Of a stretch of DNA of 64,000 nt, positions 40,102 through 47,970 are shown piece after piece. A model generated the notes under the pieces. It searched no databases. It was not told where the DNA came from and saw only the letters and a program-made list of their open reading frames with translations. A program made the position numbers and the translations under genes. The stretch is from Kangiella sp. (GTDB lineage Bacteria; Pseudomonadota; Gammaproteobacteria; Enterobacterales; Kangiellaceae): contig JANQSG010000021.1 in the NCBI GenBank assembly GCA_028284185.1, positions 124,001 through 188,000 on the forward strand, written 5' to 3'. Numbering within the stretch: position 1 is the first letter of the stretch; each line of letters starts with the position of its first letter.

Positions 40102-41736
40102 ATGATAAAACGCAAGGTAGCTATTGTCGGCGGTGGCTCATCGGGATGGATTGCTGCTGCATACTTACAAAAAGCACTAAATGTTGAAGGATTAAATTCA
40201 AACGTAGAAATAACCCTTATAGAATCTCCTGATATTCCCAGAATTTCAGTTGGCGAAGCGACTATTCCATCTATTCGCCACCTGCTAAAGGTCATTGATA
40301 TCAATGAAGCTGAATTTATGAAAGCTACCGATGCTACCTTTAAACAATCAATTAAATATACTAACTGGGTAAATAAAGATAATAGTTATTATCACCATCC
40401 TTTTTCTAGAGTTCGCAAACAGCCATTAGATTTTTCTGCTCAGGATTGGTTGGAATCAGACCAATCTATTCCATTCATGGAAACTTGTTCCGAGCAGCCT
40501 ATTATTTGTGAGCTTGGCCTGGCACCTCTAATGTTAGGGCAGTGGAGGCTTGGAGCACCTTTAACTTATGCCTACCATATGAATGCGCAAAAATTTGCTG
40601 ATTATTTGCGTGATATTTCAGTACCTCGCGGCGTAAAGCATATACTGGCGAATGTAACAGATATTGACTTAGAAAATAATGAAAAAATCTCTGCTATTCA
40701 TACTGATACTGGCGAAAAAATCATTGCCGATCTATACATCGATTGCACTGGTTTTAGAGCCAAATTGATTGAAGAAAAATTGGAGATAGGCTGGGAAGAT
40801 CATTCTCAATGGCTATTATGCGATCGCGCAATAACCATGCACATCCCTTATGAAGAGCATTTTCCAGGCATGGTAAGACCTTATACCACAGCTACAGCGC
40901 TTTCTAATGGCTGGATATGGGATATTCCAATGCAAAACCAAAGATCCATTGGCTATGTTCATTCCAGTGCATTTATTTCAGAAGAAAATGCAGAAAAAGA
41001 AATGCGTGCCTATCAGGGCGGAAATACGAAAAGTCTTAATTCTAGAACAGTATATTTTAAAGTTGGTAGAAGGAATCAAAATTGGAAAGGAAACTGTGTG
41101 GCTATTGGTTTATCCGGCGGTTTTATTGAGCCATTAGAATCCACTGGTTTATATTTAAGCGATCTAGGAACAGTTGCTTTAGCTGAGCACTTCCCCTATT
41201 CCAACGATGATATGGAAGCAATGGCTTTTAGATATAACCGAATACTTTGTAATCGCTTTTACGAAATTTTGGACTTTATCAATATGCACTATTGTTTGAC
41301 TAAAAGGACAGATACCGAGTTTTGGAAAGAGGTTCAAAAACCAGAAAGAATTAATCCTAGATTAAAAGCAAAACTAGAGTTTTGGAAAAATAGGCCTCCC
41401 ACAAATGCTGATTTTGATGATCAATATTTTTATGACCAGACTAAACATAAGTTTAATTTTGAGTCTAAAGAATTTGATTTTAGAACACCGATTGACACAG
41501 CAGCTCTATGGAATCATGAAAGCTACGAATGCATTTTATATGGAATGCACTTTAATTCTAAAAATTATGACAAACTGTACGGTAAAAATAGAAAGCCGCT
41601 AAATGTACACCCTTATATTATTCAAAGACTGCAAGCTGCTAGACAACAGATTCCACCTCATCACATTTGGCTCAATAGAGTATTAGGAATGAAACAGTAT
41701 CCTATGGCTTATAAACCTGCGGGATGGGTTGCCTAA
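40102..41736 (+). CDS. flavin-dependent tryptophan halogenase-like protein 1
   Basis: A 544-residue PrnA/RebH-type FADH2-dependent halogenase. FAD fold VAIVGGGSSGWIAAAYL, FAD contact SVGEATIPSIRHLL, the catalytic Lys in ATFKQSIKYTNW (Lys81), the class signature WIWDIP at 271-276, and FIEPLESTGLYLSDLG, in which Glu346, Thr348 and Gly349 fall on the same numbers as the catalytic Glu and chloride-site residues I recall for PrnA. All catalytic elements are thus present. Halogen (Cl or Br) and substrate are not visible; free Trp, an indole or a peptide are possible. No flavin reductase gene is adjacent. Overlaps halogenase 2 by one base. Confidence 0.93.
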   Translation: MIKRKVAIVGGGSSGWIAAAYLQKALNVEGLNSNVEITLIESPDIPRISVGEATIPSIRHLLKVIDINEAEFMKATDATFKQSIKYTNWVNKDNSYYHHPFSRVRKQPLDFSAQDWLESDQSIPFMETCSEQPIICELGLAPLMLGQWRLGAPLTYAYHMNAQKFADYLRDISVPRGVKHILANVTDIDLENNEKISAIHTDTGEKIIADLYIDCTGFRAKLIEEKLEIGWEDHSQWLLCDRAITMHIPYEEHFPGMVRPYTTATALSNGWIWDIPMQNQRSIGYVHSSAFISEENAEKEMRAYQGGNTKSLNSRTVYFKVGRRNQNWKGNCVAIGLSGGFIEPLESTGLYLSDLGTVALAEHFPYSNDDMEAMAFRYNRILCNRFYEILDFINMHYCLTKRTDTEFWKEVQKPERINPRLKAKLEFWKNRPPTNADFDDQYFYDQTKHKFNFESKEFDFRTPIDTAALWNHESYECILYGMHFNSKNYDKLYGKNRKPLNVHPYIIQRLQAARQQIPPHHIWLNRVLGMKQYPMAYKPAGWVA

Positions 41737-43361
41737 TGAATAAAAAAATTGTAATCGTTGGCGGAGGCTCATCGGGATGGATGGCTGCGGCCTATTTAAA
41801 TGGTTATTTAAATAGAAATGGTAATAAGCCAACTGTAGAGATTGAACTTATCGAATCGCCCGACATTCCTCGAATTTCAGTTGGGGAAGCAACTGTTTTA
41901 TCAATCAGACACTTTTTATCTGTAGTTGGAATAGGAGAGCAAGAATTTTTGAAGAAAACTGATGGCTCCTTTAAGCAAGCTATCAGATATACTAACTGGC
42001 TAAGAAATGACAATAGCTCTTATTATCACCCTTTCAATCGTTACAACTCTGATAATGTTGATCGAGTAATAGAAAAATGGCTTGCCACCGATCGAAGTAT
42101 TCCTTTCGTTTATTATTGCACAGCTCAAGCTGATCTTTGTGATTTAGGCTTATCACCCCATATGCTTGGCGATTGGGATATGGGCGCGCGCTTTAGTTAT
42201 GCTTATCATATGAACGCACAAAAATTTGCAGACATGCTAAGAGATATATCGATAAAACGTGGTGTAAAACATACGTTAGCTAATGTGACTGAGGTACAGT
42301 TAAAAGACAATGGCTTTATAGAACATCTCCGTACAGATATCGACTTAAAAGTTTACGGTGATATTTTTGTAGACTGCACAGGCTTTAGAGCAAAACTTAT
42401 TGAAGAAGCTCAAGGTGTCGGATGGGAAGACTGCTCAAAATGGTTACTATGTGATCGTGCGATTACTATGCATGTTCCGTATGATAAACACTATCCCGGA
42501 ATGGTTAGGCCTTATACCACAGCGACAGCACTTTCTAACGGCTGGATATGGGATATCCCTATGCAAAATCAGCGCTCTATTGGCTATGTTCATTCCAGCA
42601 GTTTTATCGAACAGGATGATGCAGAAAAAGAAATGCGCGCGTATCAAGGAGGTAATACCGAACACTTAAATTCTCGTACGATCTTTTTTAAAGTTGGCAA
42701 AAGACAGCAAGCATGGCAAGGAAACTGCATAGCTATCGGCCTTTCTGCAAGCTTTATTGAACCACTAGAATCTACAGGTTTATATCTAAGTGATTTAGGC
42801 TCTATGATGCTAGCCCAACATTTTCCATATAATGATGAGCAAATGGCTTCGATGGCCTTTAGATATAACCGTATAATGTCTAATAAGTTTTATGAAGTAT
42901 TAGATTTTATTAATATGCATTACTGCTTAACACAAAGAACTGATACAGAATTTTGGAAGATAGTGCAAACTGATGAACATATTACTGATCGCTTAAAAGC
43001 TAAATTCGAATATTGGAATAAAAAGCCTCCTTCACCATTTGACTTTGAAGATCAAAATTTTAATGGTTTAAATTACACGCCAAGTAATTTTCAATCTGAA
43101 CTTATTGATAGTAGAAACCCTATTGATACTGCAGGGATTTGGGGCCATGTAAATTACCAGTGGATACTTTATAGCATGGAATTTGAAAACCGCTTTGGCA
43201 ATACAAAACGGGAAAATGCCCCAAAAACTGTACGCCCCCAGCAAATATTAAATCGACTTGCTATGGCAAAGCAAAAATTACCAACTCATGCAGAATGGCT
43301 ACAAAAGAAACTGGGTATGCCAAAATATTCTACAGCTTATAAACCTAATGGTTGGGTTTAA
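41736..43361 (+). CDS. flavin-dependent tryptophan halogenase-like protein 2
   Basis: A 541-residue paralogue of the preceding gene, colinear along its whole length with long identical blocks (MVRPYTTATALSNGWIWDIP; EKEMRAYQGGNT), so the pair arose by tandem duplication. Catalytic Lys80 (GSFKQAIRYTNW), WIWDIP at 270-275 and Glu345 in FIEPLESTG are intact. Differences: the FAD contact reads GEATVLSIRHFL, where halogenase 1 and, from memory, most of the family have Pro instead of Leu, and the loop before FIEPLE reads LSAS instead of LSGG. Start set at ATG 41736 (TAATG overlap) rather than four codons upstream. Probably a different regio- or substrate specificity. Confidence 0.92.
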   Translation: MNKKIVIVGGGSSGWMAAAYLNGYLNRNGNKPTVEIELIESPDIPRISVGEATVLSIRHFLSVVGIGEQEFLKKTDGSFKQAIRYTNWLRNDNSSYYHPFNRYNSDNVDRVIEKWLATDRSIPFVYYCTAQADLCDLGLSPHMLGDWDMGARFSYAYHMNAQKFADMLRDISIKRGVKHTLANVTEVQLKDNGFIEHLRTDIDLKVYGDIFVDCTGFRAKLIEEAQGVGWEDCSKWLLCDRAITMHVPYDKHYPGMVRPYTTATALSNGWIWDIPMQNQRSIGYVHSSSFIEQDDAEKEMRAYQGGNTEHLNSRTIFFKVGKRQQAWQGNCIAIGLSASFIEPLESTGLYLSDLGSMMLAQHFPYNDEQMASMAFRYNRIMSNKFYEVLDFINMHYCLTQRTDTEFWKIVQTDEHITDRLKAKFEYWNKKPPSPFDFEDQNFNGLNYTPSNFQSELIDSRNPIDTAGIWGHVNYQWILYSMEFENRFGNTKRENAPKTVRPQQILNRLAMAKQKLPTHAEWLQKKLGMPKYSTAYKPNGWV

Positions 43362-43409: not shown

Positions 43410-43488
43410 AATTTTTGAAACAATTATTGGCTAGAACTAGCTAGTATCCTTTGCTATTCTCAGTAGGTTTTCATCAATGGGGATAATC

Positions 43489-45663
43489 ATGAATATCAAG
43501 CTCTTATCATTAGTTTCAGCAGCTGCTTTGACTTTAGTGGCCTGTGACAATACAGAACAAACACAAGCTCCAGCAAAGCCAATAGTCGCAGAAACAAAGC
43601 AGGTTGAACAAAAACCTGCAGAAATGAAAATTCAGCCGATTAAAGAGGCTGTGAAAGATCCTTTTATTTGGCTTGAAGAAGTTGAAGGTGAAAAGGCTTT
43701 AGCCTGGGTTGAAGAGAATAATAAAAAATCATTGGGCTATTTAAAAGCTCAGCCGCTTTATAAAGAACTTTATGAAAAAAATCTTAAAGTTTATGACTCT
43801 GATGAGCGTATTCCTTATGTTGGTCAAATGGGTAACTATTTCTATAATTTCTGGAAAGATGCTAGCAACCAGCGTGGTTTATGGCGTCGTACCACGCTCG
43901 AGGAATATAAGAAAGACAACCCTAATTGGGAAGTGGTTTTAGATTTGGACAAACTCGCTGAAGAAGAAGGTGAAAACTGGGTTTATAAAGGCTCTAATTG
44001 TTTATATCCGGAATATAAACGCTGTCTATTGAATCTTTCTCGAGGCGGTGCTGATGCAACCGTAGTGCGTGAATTTGATATCCCTTCCAAATCATTTGTT
44101 AAAGATGGTTTCTACTTACCTGAGGCCAAGTCCAGCGTAAATTGGATAGATTTGAATACGGTTTATGTAGGCACTGATTTTGGCGAAGGCAGTATGACTG
44201 ATTCTGGCTATGCCCGTATTGTGAAAGAATGGAAGCGCGGTGAACCTTTAGAGAAAGCTAAAACTATCTTTGAGGGTGAGAAAGAAAATGTCTGGGTGGC
44301 AGCCTTTGTTGCTCATGATAAAGACAAATCTTACAAACTGATTTATCAAGGGTTAACTTTCTATACTTCAGATATTTTCCTGGTCACTGAAGATGATTTA
44401 AAAAAATTAGATCGTCCAAAAGATAGCTCATTCAGTGGCATTACCAATGATCAGTTATTAATCGAGCTCAAATCGGACTGGACAGTTGGTGGCAAAAGCT
44501 ACCCTCAAGCTGCCCTGCTTTCGATTAATATCAATGACTATTTGGCAGGTAAAACCAACTTCACAGAAGTTTTAGTACCGGATGCAAACACTTCAATTTC
44601 TGGTATCTCTTCAACCAAAGATTATATTTTAATCAATACTCTAAAAGATGTTGCCAGTGAACTTTATCGCTATCGGTTTAAAGATGGCAAATGGTCAAAT
44701 GAAAAAATTGCTATGCCAGCTTTAGGTTCAATTTCTGTCGCTGGTGTTAGCGACCAACACAATAATTTCTTTATTAATTACAACAACTTCTTAACTCCAA
44801 GCAGCCTCTATTATTATGATGATACCAATGCTGATTTGAGCGTTTTAAAAAGTTTACCAGCCTTTTTTGATGCTTCGCCTTACAAAGTCGAACAACATTT
44901 TGCCACAGCAAAAGATGGCACCAAAATCCCTTATTTTTTAGTAATGCATAAAGATACCAAGTTTGATGGTAAAAACCCTACTCTACTTTACGGTTATGGT
45001 GGTTTCGAGATCTCACTGCGCCCAAATTATTCCGCAACCATTGGCATGGACTGGTTGGAGCAAGGTGGTGTTTATGCCTTAGCCAATATTCGTGGTGGTG
45101 GTGAATATGGTCCTAGATGGCATCAGGCGGCATTAAAGAAAAATCGACATATCGCTTTTACCGACTTTATTACCGTTGGTGAAGATTTAGTGGCGAATAA
45201 AGTTACTTCCCCACGTCATTTAGGTATTCGCGGTGGTTCCAATGGTGGTTTATTGGTTGGTACAGTTGCCACTATGCGCCCTGATTTATTCAATGCGGTT
45301 GTATGCCAGGTACCATTATTGGATATGAAGCGTTTTAATCAATTATTGGCCGGTGCCAGCTGGATGGGCGAATACGGTAATCCTGACAACGAAGATGAAT
45401 GGGAATACATTAAAACCTACTCGCCTTATCATAATGTAGATAAAGATACAAAATACCCAAAAATCTTCTTCACCACTTCGACTCGTGATGATCGCGTTCA
45501 CCCAGGTCATGCGCGTAAGATGGTAGCTAAGATGCAGGCACAGGGCCATGATGTGCTTTATTATGAAAATACCGAGGGTGGTCATGGGGGTGCTTCCAAT
45601 AATAAGCAAAGCGCTAGTTTGCAGGCACTGATTTATACTTATTTAAGTGATCAACTAAAATAG
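43489..45663 (+). CDS. prolyl oligopeptidase-family serine peptidase, lipoprotein
   Basis: A 724-residue S9A-type peptidase that cuts short peptides after Pro. A lipoprotein signal (MNIKLLSLVSAAALTLVAC) and an Ala/Pro/Lys-rich linker place it at the periplasmic or outer-membrane surface. PFIWLEEVEGEKALAWVEENN starts the propeller; the C-terminal hydrolase domain holds the nucleophile in GGSNGGLLVG, the Asp in STRDDRVHPGHARKM and the His in EGGHGGASN. Start chosen at 43489 because GGGG lies six bases before it; an ATG 12 bases upstream overlaps that GGGG. It supplies proline-containing peptides or free proline indirectly, interesting beside proBA. Confidence 0.93.
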   Translation: MNIKLLSLVSAAALTLVACDNTEQTQAPAKPIVAETKQVEQKPAEMKIQPIKEAVKDPFIWLEEVEGEKALAWVEENNKKSLGYLKAQPLYKELYEKNLKVYDSDERIPYVGQMGNYFYNFWKDASNQRGLWRRTTLEEYKKDNPNWEVVLDLDKLAEEEGENWVYKGSNCLYPEYKRCLLNLSRGGADATVVREFDIPSKSFVKDGFYLPEAKSSVNWIDLNTVYVGTDFGEGSMTDSGYARIVKEWKRGEPLEKAKTIFEGEKENVWVAAFVAHDKDKSYKLIYQGLTFYTSDIFLVTEDDLKKLDRPKDSSFSGITNDQLLIELKSDWTVGGKSYPQAALLSININDYLAGKTNFTEVLVPDANTSISGISSTKDYILINTLKDVASELYRYRFKDGKWSNEKIAMPALGSISVAGVSDQHNNFFINYNNFLTPSSLYYYDDTNADLSVLKSLPAFFDASPYKVEQHFATAKDGTKIPYFLVMHKDTKFDGKNPTLLYGYGGFEISLRPNYSATIGMDWLEQGGVYALANIRGGGEYGPRWHQAALKKNRHIAFTDFITVGEDLVANKVTSPRHLGIRGGSNGGLLVGTVATMRPDLFNAVVCQVPLLDMKRFNQLLAGASWMGEYGNPDNEDEWEYIKTYSPYHNVDKDTKYPKIFFTTSTRDDRVHPGHARKMVAKMQAQGHDVLYYENTEGGHGGASNNKQSASLQALIYTYLSDQLK

Positions 45664-45690: not shown

Positions 45691-45720
45691 TTGACACTGG
45701 ATAGTGGATCAAACTAGATT
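45691..45720 (+). promoter_or_regulatory. probable proBA promoter
   Basis: TTGACA (45691-45696), 18-bp spacer, TAGATT (45715-45720). Predicted start near 45727, at or just before the leader-peptide ATG. That would make the leader peptide leaderless or place the true start slightly upstream. Confidence 0.5.
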
Positions 45721-45726
45721 AGGCAC

Positions 45727-45813
45727 ATGATTAGAATATTAATTCCAAACACCGTAAAACCAGGGTATCCAGCTGCTCCCTATAGCTTGTTGTGCGGGAT
45801 TGATTTCTATTGA
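45727..45813 (+). CDS. candidate proline-containing leader peptide of proBA
   Basis: A 28-codon ORF reading MIRILIPNTVKPGYPAAPY and then SLLCGIDFY-stop, with Pro at codons 7, 12, 15 and 18. It lies between a TTGACA promoter and a terminator that precedes proB. The codons for Cys23-Gly24 form the first strand of an antiterminator, and the stop codon (45811-45813) lies in its loop. The ribosome site is weak (AGG only three bases before ATG). No homologue is known to me; the case rests on the architecture described in the attenuator entry. It is too short for ordinary gene calling. Confidence 0.45.
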   Translation: MIRILIPNTVKPGYPAAPYSLLCGIDFY

Positions 45814-45866
45814 CTGTAAACTTTACTTTCTTAGAAAACCCGCAAAACTCACTAGCGGGTTTTTTT
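45793..45866 (+). promoter_or_regulatory. proBA transcription attenuator (mutually exclusive hairpins)
   Basis: Strand 2 is TGCGGG-ATTGA-TTTCTA (45793-45809), strand 3 is TAGAAA-A-CCCGC (45832-45843), and strand 4 is GCGGGTTTT (45855-45863). Strands 2:3 pair over 12 bp in two blocks (antiterminator); strands 3:4 pair as AAAACCCGC/GCGGGTTTT followed by seven T (terminator), 38 bases before the proB start. A ribosome held at the Pro codons would leave strand 2 free; one reaching the stop codon would cover it. This is the trp/his logic applied to proline. The terminator itself is certain, the switch inferred. Confidence 0.6.
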
Positions 45867-45903
45867 ATGGCTAATTTTATGGCCAATAACAATGGAACAA
45901 CAA

Positions 45904-46692
45904 ATGAATCGATTAGATTTAAGCAATTACAAAAAAATTGTGTTAAAAGTTGGTTCGGCTTTGGTCGCCCCTGATGGTAAGTCCTGTTCCGTCGAATATT
46001 GCTTGCCAATAGCCCATTTTATAAAAAAATGCCGCAAGCAAGGCATTGAATTGGTACTAGTATCATCTGGTGCAGTAGCTGCTGGCTATAATAAATTAAA
46101 GCCTGATAATCATGCCCTGAGCATAAAAGAAAAACAGGCATTAGCGGCAGTTGGCCAATCTATAGTGATTAATCACTGGCAGCGCTTTTTTGATTCAAGC
46201 GTAGCACAGGTACTACTCACGCATGATGATCTGGCTCAAAACAACCGTTTTACCAATGCAAAAAACACCATAAAAATGCTACATAGCCTCGCTGTTCTGC
46301 CCATTGTTAATGAAAACGATACGGTAGCTATTGAAGAGTTAAAAGTTGGTGATAATGATAACCTAGCTGCAGAAGTGGCAGTTTTGATTGATGCTGATTT
46401 ATTAATAATATTTAGTGATATCAATGGTTTATATGACGATAACCCTAACACTAATCCCAATGCTAGCTTAATCAAAGAAGTAAAGCAGCTTGACGCTAAT
46501 ATCCAGTCTATGGCCAAAGACAGCGATAATCCACAAGCTACCGGTGGTATGAAAACCAAATTACAGGCAGCTTTAACTGCCACTAATAAGGCAATTGATA
46601 CCATTATTTGTAATGGTAAAAATGAAAGTTATATGAAGCTGTTTGATGGTGAAAATCCTGGAACCTGGATCGTCAGCTCCAAGTCCATTTAA
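45904..46692 (+). CDS. proB: glutamate 5-kinase, short form without PUA domain
   Basis: Phosphorylates glutamate in the first step of proline synthesis. The amino-acid kinase domain is complete: KIVLKVGSALV, ELVLVSSGAVAAGYNKL, VLLTHDDLAQNNRFTNAKNT, VPIVNENDTVA in the form LPIVNENDTVAIEELKVGDND, and DNPQATGGMKTKLQAA. At 262 residues it lacks the C-terminal PUA domain found in the roughly 367-residue enterobacterial enzyme. Start set at the second ATG (45904, GGA seven bases upstream); the first at 45892 would add four residues. 12 bp before proA and behind an attenuator-like leader. Confidence 0.94.
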   Translation: MNRLDLSNYKKIVLKVGSALVAPDGKSCSVEYCLPIAHFIKKCRKQGIELVLVSSGAVAAGYNKLKPDNHALSIKEKQALAAVGQSIVINHWQRFFDSSVAQVLLTHDDLAQNNRFTNAKNTIKMLHSLAVLPIVNENDTVAIEELKVGDNDNLAAEVAVLIDADLLIIFSDINGLYDDNPNTNPNASLIKEVKQLDANIQSMAKDSDNPQATGGMKTKLQAALTATNKAIDTIICNGKNESYMKLFDGENPGTWIVSSKSI

Positions 46693-46704: not shown

Positions 46705-47970
46705 ATGAATAGTTCAGCACTTTATGCCATGACCAAAGCTGCTAAAACTGCCTCTTTACAGTTAGCAAAGCTTAATAGCACGCAAAAAAATAACGTTTTA
46801 ACCTTAATGGCCAAGCAACTCAAAAAAAACCAAGCAGAAATTATTGCCGCTAACAATAAAGATATAGTAAAAGCAAAAACTGATGGGCTGTCAGCAGCCA
46901 TGATTGATCGTTTATTGCTCGACAAGTCGCGCATCGAACAGATGATTGATTCCTTATACAATGTGATTAATTTAACAGATCCTATTGGTGAAACCAGTAG
47001 CAGCCAAATCCGACCCAATGGTATCCGTGTTTGCAAAATGCGCATTCCTCTTGGTGTCATATTAATGATCTACGAATCACGTCCCAATGTGGCAGTAGAG
47101 GCTGCTGCATTAGCCTTTAAGTCTGGCAATACCATCATCTTACGTGGTGGTAAAGAAGCTTTTTATTCCAATCAAGCTATTACTAAAAACTGGCATTTAG
47201 CGCTAACACAAGCAAAATATTCCACTAATATGATCAATATGGTGCCAATTCAAGAACATAGCGCTATTGGTGAGCTGTTGAATTTTAGTGATACCATTGA
47301 TTTGGTCATCCCAAGAGGCGGCGAACGCTTGATCCGTATGGTTACTGAAAACAGTAAAATTCCTGTTATTCAACACTTTAAAGGGGTCTGTCATCTTTAT
47401 GTGGATAAAGATGCCGATCTAAAAAAAGCACTGGATTTATTGATCGATGGCAAAATATCAAGACCAGGAGTTTGTAATTCCCTGGAAACATTAATTGTCC
47501 ATAAAAATATAGCCAAAGCATTTTTGGCTAAAGTTGAAAAAGTAGCTACTCAATATAAAGTTGGAGTTAAAATAAACTCTTTAGGACAGAGTTTATTAAG
47601 TAGCACAGAATTAGCCACCGATGAAGATTATGCAACAGAATACTTGAGTTTAAATATTAATATCAAAGTGGTTAACTCTTATCAGGAAGCCATCGATCAT
47701 ATTTATCGATTTAGCTCAGATCATACCGAAGTCATCGTGACTGAAAACTTGGATAGAGCTAACGATTTTATTAATCAAATCAATTCTTCAGTAGTTATGG
47801 TTAACGCCTCCTCCCGCTTTTCCGACGGCGGTGAATTAGGGTTGGGCGCCGAAATCGGCATTTCTACCAGTAAACTACATGCCTACGGGCCAATGGGTCT
47901 ATACCAATTAACTACTGAAAAATTCGTAGTTATGGGGCAAGGACAAATCCGGCATCCTGAGTTGCAGTAA
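46705..47970 (+). CDS. proA: gamma-glutamyl phosphate reductase
   Basis: NADPH-dependent reduction of glutamyl-5-phosphate to glutamate semialdehyde, second step of proline synthesis. The 421-residue protein shows the ALDH-like fold with IPLGVILMIYESRPNVAVEAA, NTIILRGGKEAFYSN, LVIPRGGERLIRMV, and the catalytic Cys in SRPGVCNSLETLIVH. NASSRFSDGGELGLGAEIGIST is the C-terminal signature. Second gene of proBA, ending at a bidirectional terminator shared with the tRNA on the other strand. Confidence 0.98.
   Translation: MNSSALYAMTKAAKTASLQLAKLNSTQKNNVLTLMAKQLKKNQAEIIAANNKDIVKAKTDGLSAAMIDRLLLDKSRIEQMIDSLYNVINLTDPIGETSSSQIRPNGIRVCKMRIPLGVILMIYESRPNVAVEAAALAFKSGNTIILRGGKEAFYSNQAITKNWHLALTQAKYSTNMINMVPIQEHSAIGELLNFSDTIDLVIPRGGERLIRMVTENSKIPVIQHFKGVCHLYVDKDADLKKALDLLIDGKISRPGVCNSLETLIVHKNIAKAFLAKVEKVATQYKVGVKINSLGQSLLSSTELATDEDYATEYLSLNINIKVVNSYQEAIDHIYRFSSDHTEVIVTENLDRANDFINQINSSVVMVNASSRFSDGGELGLGAEIGISTSKLHAYGPMGLYQLTTEKFVVMGQGQIRHPELQ

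Follow-up and report, generated by a model that had tools for sequence, protein, structure and literature searches.

The question raised by this locus is whether transcription of the proline synthesis genes proB and proA of Kangiella sp. is governed by a short leader peptide, that is, by ribosome-mediated attenuation responding to proline or to the charging of prolyl-tRNA. From its sequence, such control of proBA is very probable. The analysis covered the window (the whole stretch of DNA, 64,000 nucleotides) and related genomes. The initial annotation had described a promoter, a terminator, a competing pairing that shares the terminator's left arm, and a 28-codon open reading frame (ORF) in which codons 7, 12, 15 and 18 are Pro; all were confirmed by direct reading. 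The features are as follows.

45691-45720, forward strand: sigma70-like promoter, TTGACA-N18-TAGATT, with the transcription start predicted at or beside the leader AUG
45727-45813, forward strand: leader ORF MIRILIPNTVKPGYPAAPYSLLCGIDFY, probably leaderless, 28 codons, with Pro clusters in 13/13 genus leaders
45745-45780, forward strand: putative regulatory Pro codons (CCA 45745, CCA 45760, CCA 45769, CCC 45778)
45733-45746, forward strand: region 1, able to pair with region 2 (45796-45808), from the minimum-energy fold of the leader
45793-45809, forward strand: region 2, 5' strand of the antiterminator (TGCGGG plus TTTCTA), from duplex, folding and swap tests
45832-45844, forward strand: region 3, 3' strand of the antiterminator, overlapping the terminator left arm (45835-45843)
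45835-45866, forward strand: intrinsic terminator (3:4), arms 45835-45843 AAAACCCGC and 45855-45863 GCGGGTTTT, T-run 45860-45866
45904-46692, forward strand: proB, glutamate 5-kinase (TIGR01027, E 4.3e-84, profile positions 1-254 of 363)
46705-47970, forward strand: proA, glutamate-5-semialdehyde dehydrogenase (NF001221, E 1.4e-166; TIGR00407)

The promoter was read as TTGACA at 45691-45696 and TAGATT at 45715-45720, separated by 18 nt. The core of the leader peptide reads KPGYPAAPYS, and the last Pro codon ends 12 nt before region 2. The antiterminator consists of 6+6 bp, TGCGGG (45793-45798) pairing with CCCGCA (45839-45844) and TTTCTA (45804-45809) with TAGAAA (45832-45837). The terminator folds at -11.8 kcal/mol; it was missing from the pattern-scan listing of the window because its 11-nt loop exceeds the 3-8 nt limit of the scan. 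The minimum-energy fold of the whole leader (-38.3 kcal/mol, z -2.52) includes the 1:2 pairing. The most likely start of proB is 45904, favoured over an in-frame upstream ATG at 45892; relatives begin MN.., and the earlier placement of the terminator 38 bases before proB fits the start at 45904 and not the ATG at 45892. This proB is the sole proB match in its genome (2.5 Mb), and the genes that follow the leader make proline, the amino acid encoded by its Pro codons. Immediately 5' of the leader is encoded a protein resembling oligopeptidase B (43477-45663), whose start is signal-like; it follows in turn a gene with weak matches to flavin-dependent halogenase and geranylgeranyl-reductase families (41724-43361).

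Of twenty genomes sampled in the genus, proB was matched in 14 with an E value of 1e-20 or better, while 6 gave no such match. The counts given here over 13 refer to genomes with a first-type proB copy, that of the window (G000) included; G018, which has a second-type copy only, was omitted. In 13/13 the matched ProB start is preceded, at a distance of 165-250 nt, by an ORF 28-46 codons long that contains 3-5 Pro and has a terminator (-11.8 to -18.6 kcal/mol) after it. Two groups of leaders were distinguished besides that of the window: group A (G001, G002, G004, G006, G008, G009, G014), with the core LPGQPIPYS or similar, and group B (G003, G005, G011, G013, G019), with the core SLPVPGKSRLALC or similar. 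This conservation in relatives rules out a chance origin of the leader, the main weight resting on the 12 relatives rather than on the window sequence by itself.

Clustering of Pro was compared with dinucleotide shuffles, using ORFs of 15-60 residues. At least 3 Pro within 12 residues were present in 13/13 upstream regions against 2.39 expected, and no other residue was comparable (Leu 9 vs 6.0, Ser 6 vs 3.7, Ile 5 vs 3.2, Asn 4 vs 1.5, Gly 2 vs 0.2 expected). Pairwise differences in the ten-codon core of group A were dominated by the third codon position (28/30/88 at positions 1/2/3), while the core of group B showed few differences (12/8/4), without third-position bias. CCC is the rarest Pro codon in 32 long ORFs of the window (64/609), yet it makes up 40/52 of the leader Pro codons, in genomes that are related; the window's own leader has 3 CCA and 1 CCC. 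Outside the Pro cluster the peptide is poorly conserved, with lengths of 28-46 aa and varying C-termini.

The strand that a ribosome stalled at its last Pro codon would leave open was folded, starting 8 nt downstream of the final Pro codon in the cluster. In the window this strand gave z -5.07, with 0/300 shuffles as good, and over the 13 leaders the combined z was -11.6, although combined z values here treat as independent leaders that are in fact related. P was 0.043 or less in 9/13, the remaining four being G005 and G008 (0.07), G004 (0.15) and G009 (0.27). With region 4 omitted, as in the stalled state, the mean pairing probability of 2:3 was 0.47-0.87, G005 and G009 giving the lowest values. 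For a ribosome that has reached the stop codon, the terminator fold was obtained in 13/13; it had no rival because regions 3 and 4 alone were folded. The last Pro codon lies 11-22 nt from region 2 and the stop codon 21-41 nt from the left arm in 13/13 leaders, spacings by which a stalled ribosome would leave region 2 free, while a finishing ribosome need not cover the left arm.

The fit between regions 2 and 3 was examined in two ways. Against shuffled region 2, with region 3 taken without its GG:CC end, the 2:3 duplex of the window alone gave P 0.015 and the combined z was -4.88 over 13; P was below 0.05 in 5/13 (G000, G003, G011, G013, G019), 0.14 in G001 and above 0.2 in 7/13 (G002, G004, G005, G006, G008, G009, G014). 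In the swap test, where the full left arm was included, region 3 of the window reached -15.6 kcal/mol with the region 2 of its own leader, compared with -6.3 to -10.3 for 12 foreign ones, so that among 13 region-2 strands its own beat the next by 5.3 kcal/mol. The reverse swap was less sharp, with region 2 of the window accepting most foreign arms (-6.7 to -13.5), and region 2 of group B paired nearly equally with region 3 of group A (mean -17.5) and with its own (-18.6). The initial annotation had staked its case on conservation of the leader ORF and of the 2:3 pairing in close relatives; within the genus the ORF was present in 13/13, and same-genome 2:3 pairing with the full left arm reached -13.7 to -21.3 kcal/mol in 12/13, with -8.4 in G009, which was weak in every pairing test. 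It had also pointed to relatives for conserved Pro codons and compensatory changes. The former held, the clusters being kept in 13/13, but compensatory changes were thin (3/13 pairs in group A, 0/12 in group B), because the 2:3 helix hardly varies inside each group. The sequence-variable segment between regions 2 and 3 folded slightly better than chance (combined z -3.4, 12 leaders).

Folding at equilibrium without a ribosome, up to region 4, which disregards the order of RNA synthesis, gave 2:3 in 8/13 (0.59-0.83; window 0.78), and 1:2 above 0.7 only in G002, G005 and G014 (3/13; window 0.08). Since ribosome-free folds favour 2:3 in eight leaders and 1:2 in three, the default of an untranslated leader may be read-through. 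The 1:2 hairpin itself is only partly supported by the folding models (combined z of the duplex -6.42).

A sigma70-like promoter was placed in 13/13 genus leaders, its end 6-7 nt upstream of the AUG. Scored with approximate sigma70 weights, it ranked first among 1,480-1,690 placements in 10/13, second in G008 and G014 and third in G009; that of the window was the best of 1630 candidate placements in its leader. Spacers are 17 nt in the genus leaders and 18 in the window. Transcription usually starts about 7 nt after the -10 hexamer, which would here fall on the A of the leader AUG, and the leader mRNA is therefore probably leaderless, as judged from the predicted promoter position in 13/13 and from the same arrangement at the Thr and first His leaders of this genome. 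No Shine-Dalgarno (SD) site common to the 13 leaders was found. In six group A leaders (not G008) the sequence TAGGA overlaps the -10 at about 10 nt from the AUG, and would be a possible weak ribosome site if transcription started further upstream; group B and the window are without it. A poor ribosome site and a predicted start at the ATG had earlier been listed as weak points of the proposal. Because the -10 lies 6-7 nt before the AUG in 13/13, both look like conserved design instead. A block TAACCAA..(T)T.ATTG, about 35-55 nt before the leader AUG and running into the -35, was seen in most genus-mates and was absent in the window, G008 and G009; it is perhaps an operator or UP element.

Other biosynthetic genes of the window genome were inspected for similar leaders. 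A Thr (thrA-type) leader, MKTFYTLTTTTTTTFHLEVSG, with a terminator-like hairpin precedes an aspartokinase/homoserine dehydrogenase gene (L209, G000:C10, reverse strand), and hisG (L210, G000:C11, reverse strand) is preceded by two tandem His leader ORFs, each with a terminator-like hairpin and T-run. In the Thr leader and the first His leader, MKTVYSQRHHDHHHASSMAVLCCV, the -10 hexamer lies 6 nt upstream of the ATG and follows an N17 spacer (ranks 2 and 1 of 1,900, with the same approximate weights), and the first hisG leader is probably leaderless, judging by this position. For the second His leader, which is internal to the transcript, an SD-like AAAGGT was seen but no good promoter (rank 21). 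Comparable leaders were absent upstream of two chorismate-binding genes and a second homoserine dehydrogenase gene (L211-L213).

The search was extended to other proB loci. In family f11 of the same order (24 genomes, one genus), 14 genomes have a proB near the window's type, and 9/14 loci (L029, L157, L158, L160, L161, L162, L163, L165, L166) carry a leader 21-23 codons long, preceded by an SD site, in which PPP is invariant while its codons change synonymously; this leader was absent in the other five (L159, L164, L167, L168, L169). A scan of one f11 locus (L157) listed no terminator, and in five loci folded the RNA after PPP was no more stable than shuffles. A hairpin AATCGC..GCGATT lies downstream of the f11 leader, and its loop TTACTCTT is able to pair with AAGAGTAA immediately ahead of proB. 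In the neighbouring genus g3, short ORFs with the ending PL(V/K)G(N)* and additional Pro upstream of it were seen in 4/6 genomes with a proB match (L015, L018, L021, L028); they lie over a CCCCTTGTGGG-like (CCCC-TTGT-GGG-like) hairpin before proB; scans of L015 and L028 found no terminator after the Pro codons. L021 has CCCCTTAAGGGG at the hairpin, and inspection by eye suggested a small stem and T-run farther downstream. The chances are about even for a wider reading in which proline attenuation exists in at least two families of one order through two devices unrelated to each other: in the window genus a leaderless Pro leader plus terminator, and in f11 an SD-preceded invariant-PPP leader without a visible terminator, which would also sense EF-P-dependent polyproline stalling. 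The same reading takes leaderless, promoter-loaded attenuators to be usual in the window organism (Pro, Thr and first His).

The second-type proB, found in 12 genus-mates (L115-L126), has a 5' region different from that of the first type. Its leader is conserved over about 190 nt after a TTGACA promoter, with CCGTGCTTA near the 5' end and ATCCTTTA close to proB; folding of one copy gave z -2.24, and no Rfam match above threshold was obtained in the loci tried. Genus-mates thus have two short proB genes, each under a different leader. Inspection by eye of 20 proB upstream stretches (18 genomes of the order) and of the g4 and g5 loci revealed no clear comparable leader. The class sample comprised 139 genomes with a proB match, of which 28 were ORF-filtered and 60 screened by a crude script, G000 and G042 being read separately. 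Pro-dense ORFs in 4/28 of the ORF-filtered genomes were taken as chance, without a shuffle baseline; the screen of 60 yielded four with at least 110 nt free of an upstream open frame, one of them Pro-dense against 0.5 expected. Among 80 named loci, of which L035-L049 were read and the others filtered for ORFs containing at least 3 Pro, nothing comparable was evident, and a Pro-rich frame running into proB in Arsukibacterium (L037) was taken as coincidence.

From the anatomy, conservation, pairing energies and geometry observed, we infer the transcription start, translation of the leader, and the direction and signal of the response as follows. RNA polymerase would start at or beside the leader AUG and ribosomes would load onto the leaderless end. 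When charged prolyl-tRNA is scarce, the ribosome would stall at the Pro codons and region 2, 12 nt downstream, would stay unmasked; free region 2 would pair with region 3 ahead of the synthesis of region 4, no terminator would form and proBA would be transcribed. When proline is ample, the ribosome would reach the stop codon and mask region 2 or, in relatives with longer leaders, open the antiterminator stem instead, so that region 3 would pair with region 4 and transcription would end 25-37 nt before proB. That a stalled ribosome frees the antiterminator and a finishing one masks it had been suggested at the outset, and the presence of ORF and terminator in 13/13, the geometry and the pairing energies argue for it.

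Control by proline is favoured by the Pro-rich leaders and their Pro clusters, the stalled-state folds, the swap test in the window, the kept spacing and the CCC bias, and also by the Thr and His leaders with terminators in the same genome and the invariant-PPP leader at the related proB in a second family (9/14). The same attenuator might instead respond mainly to an input other than proline supply, namely general stress on translation, or slow reading of CCC/CCU by tRNA-Pro that is without its m1G37 mark at low Mg2+, as argued for Salmonella mgtL. Mg2+, Pro codons and MgtL are linked in the title of one paper. The predominance of CCC among the leader Pro codons would suit such an input, as would the Salmonella mgtP and mgtA leaders, which put Pro codons before Mg2+ genes according to the available part of the source (PMC3641672). 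It is nevertheless unlikely, as the genes controlled here make proline, the Thr and His leaders of the same genome carry codons for the amino acids that their own operons make, and the leader of the window holds only a single CCC.

Two further explanations were considered. The leader peptide or the terminated leader RNA could act in trans, control of proBA not being its main job, a role reported for S. meliloti trpL (peTrpL/rnTrpL), whose leader mRNA starts at its ATG (PMC7298713, as far as its available text goes); a peptide so poorly conserved beyond the Pro cluster, with differing lengths and C-termini, makes this very improbable. We give just as little credence to a constitutive terminator that lowers proBA expression without sensing, the ORF being untranslated or irrelevant. 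Its ribosome site is indeed putative, and untranslated RNA folds to read-through in 8/13 at equilibrium, but without translation there would be no reason for Pro clusters in 13/13, for the excess of third-position changes in group A, for the mutual fit of regions 2 and 3 in the window, or for a kept spacing from the Pro codons to region 2. Attenuation by proline or by prolyl-tRNA charging thus remains the favoured explanation of the leader.

Classical attenuators (his, thr, trp, leu, ilv, phe) have a leader with cognate codons, an antiterminator that shares the left arm of the terminator and a target operon that makes the amino acid. The proBA leader has these three features in common with the classical amino-acid leader attenuators of proteobacteria and differs in that proline lies outside their specificities as far as these are known. 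To our knowledge proline is not among the specificities of leader-peptide attenuators, a 2004 proteobacterial survey being known to us by citation, and the sensing of tRNA-Pro is known from T-boxes or from the Salmonella Mg2+-gene leaders. The T-box of proline genes in Firmicutes senses tRNA-Pro charging by direct binding of the tRNA to the RNA. Control of proline synthesis by tRNA-Pro charging would be shared with the proposed proBA leader, which differs in being read by a ribosome. A T-box or other cis-regulatory Rfam family was rejected for the window, where only a tRNA matched at gathering scores; six other loci gave 3 sub-threshold matches only.

The closest known systems are the Salmonella mgtP and mgtL leaders, mgtL being the leader of mgtA. 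In the part of the source available, the mgtP (mgtCBR) and mgtA leaders are described as short ORFs with Pro codons and alternative hairpins, with more transcription when charging of Pro-tRNA is expected to be lower (PMC3641672). The proBA leader resembles them in its short ORF rich in Pro codons and its alternative hairpins. The Salmonella leaders control Mg2+ genes, and in mgtP three Pro codons stand in a row and an SD-like site is present (PMC3641672, same part), whereas here the target is proline synthesis, the Pro codons of the window are spaced and the ORF is probably leaderless. It does not stand before an Mg2+ transporter operon, and is followed by proB and proA. The leader mRNA of Sinorhizobium meliloti trpL also begins at the ATG of the leader ORF (PMC7298713, available text), as is predicted here, but that system serves tryptophan in an alphaproteobacterium, and functions in trans are reported for it.

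The initial annotation knew of no ribosome-mediated proline attenuator for proBA, and none was found in the literature searched. An attenuator on proline synthesis was not encountered in the full-text literature within reach, most subscription papers lying beyond it (PMC2965389, PMC2659441, PMC7815308, PMC1262725, PMC7298713, PMC8632094, PMC4809551, PMC3641672, PMC13236596; available portions). As far as this search extends, leader-peptide attenuation is new for proline synthesis. If true, it would fill the proline gap among the amino acids with leader-peptide-attenuated synthesis operons, and it would place ribosome loading in an attenuator without a Shine-Dalgarno site. Two questions would become testable: whether leaderless initiation couples the first ribosome more tightly to RNA polymerase in an attenuator, and how often proline attenuation was invented or lost.
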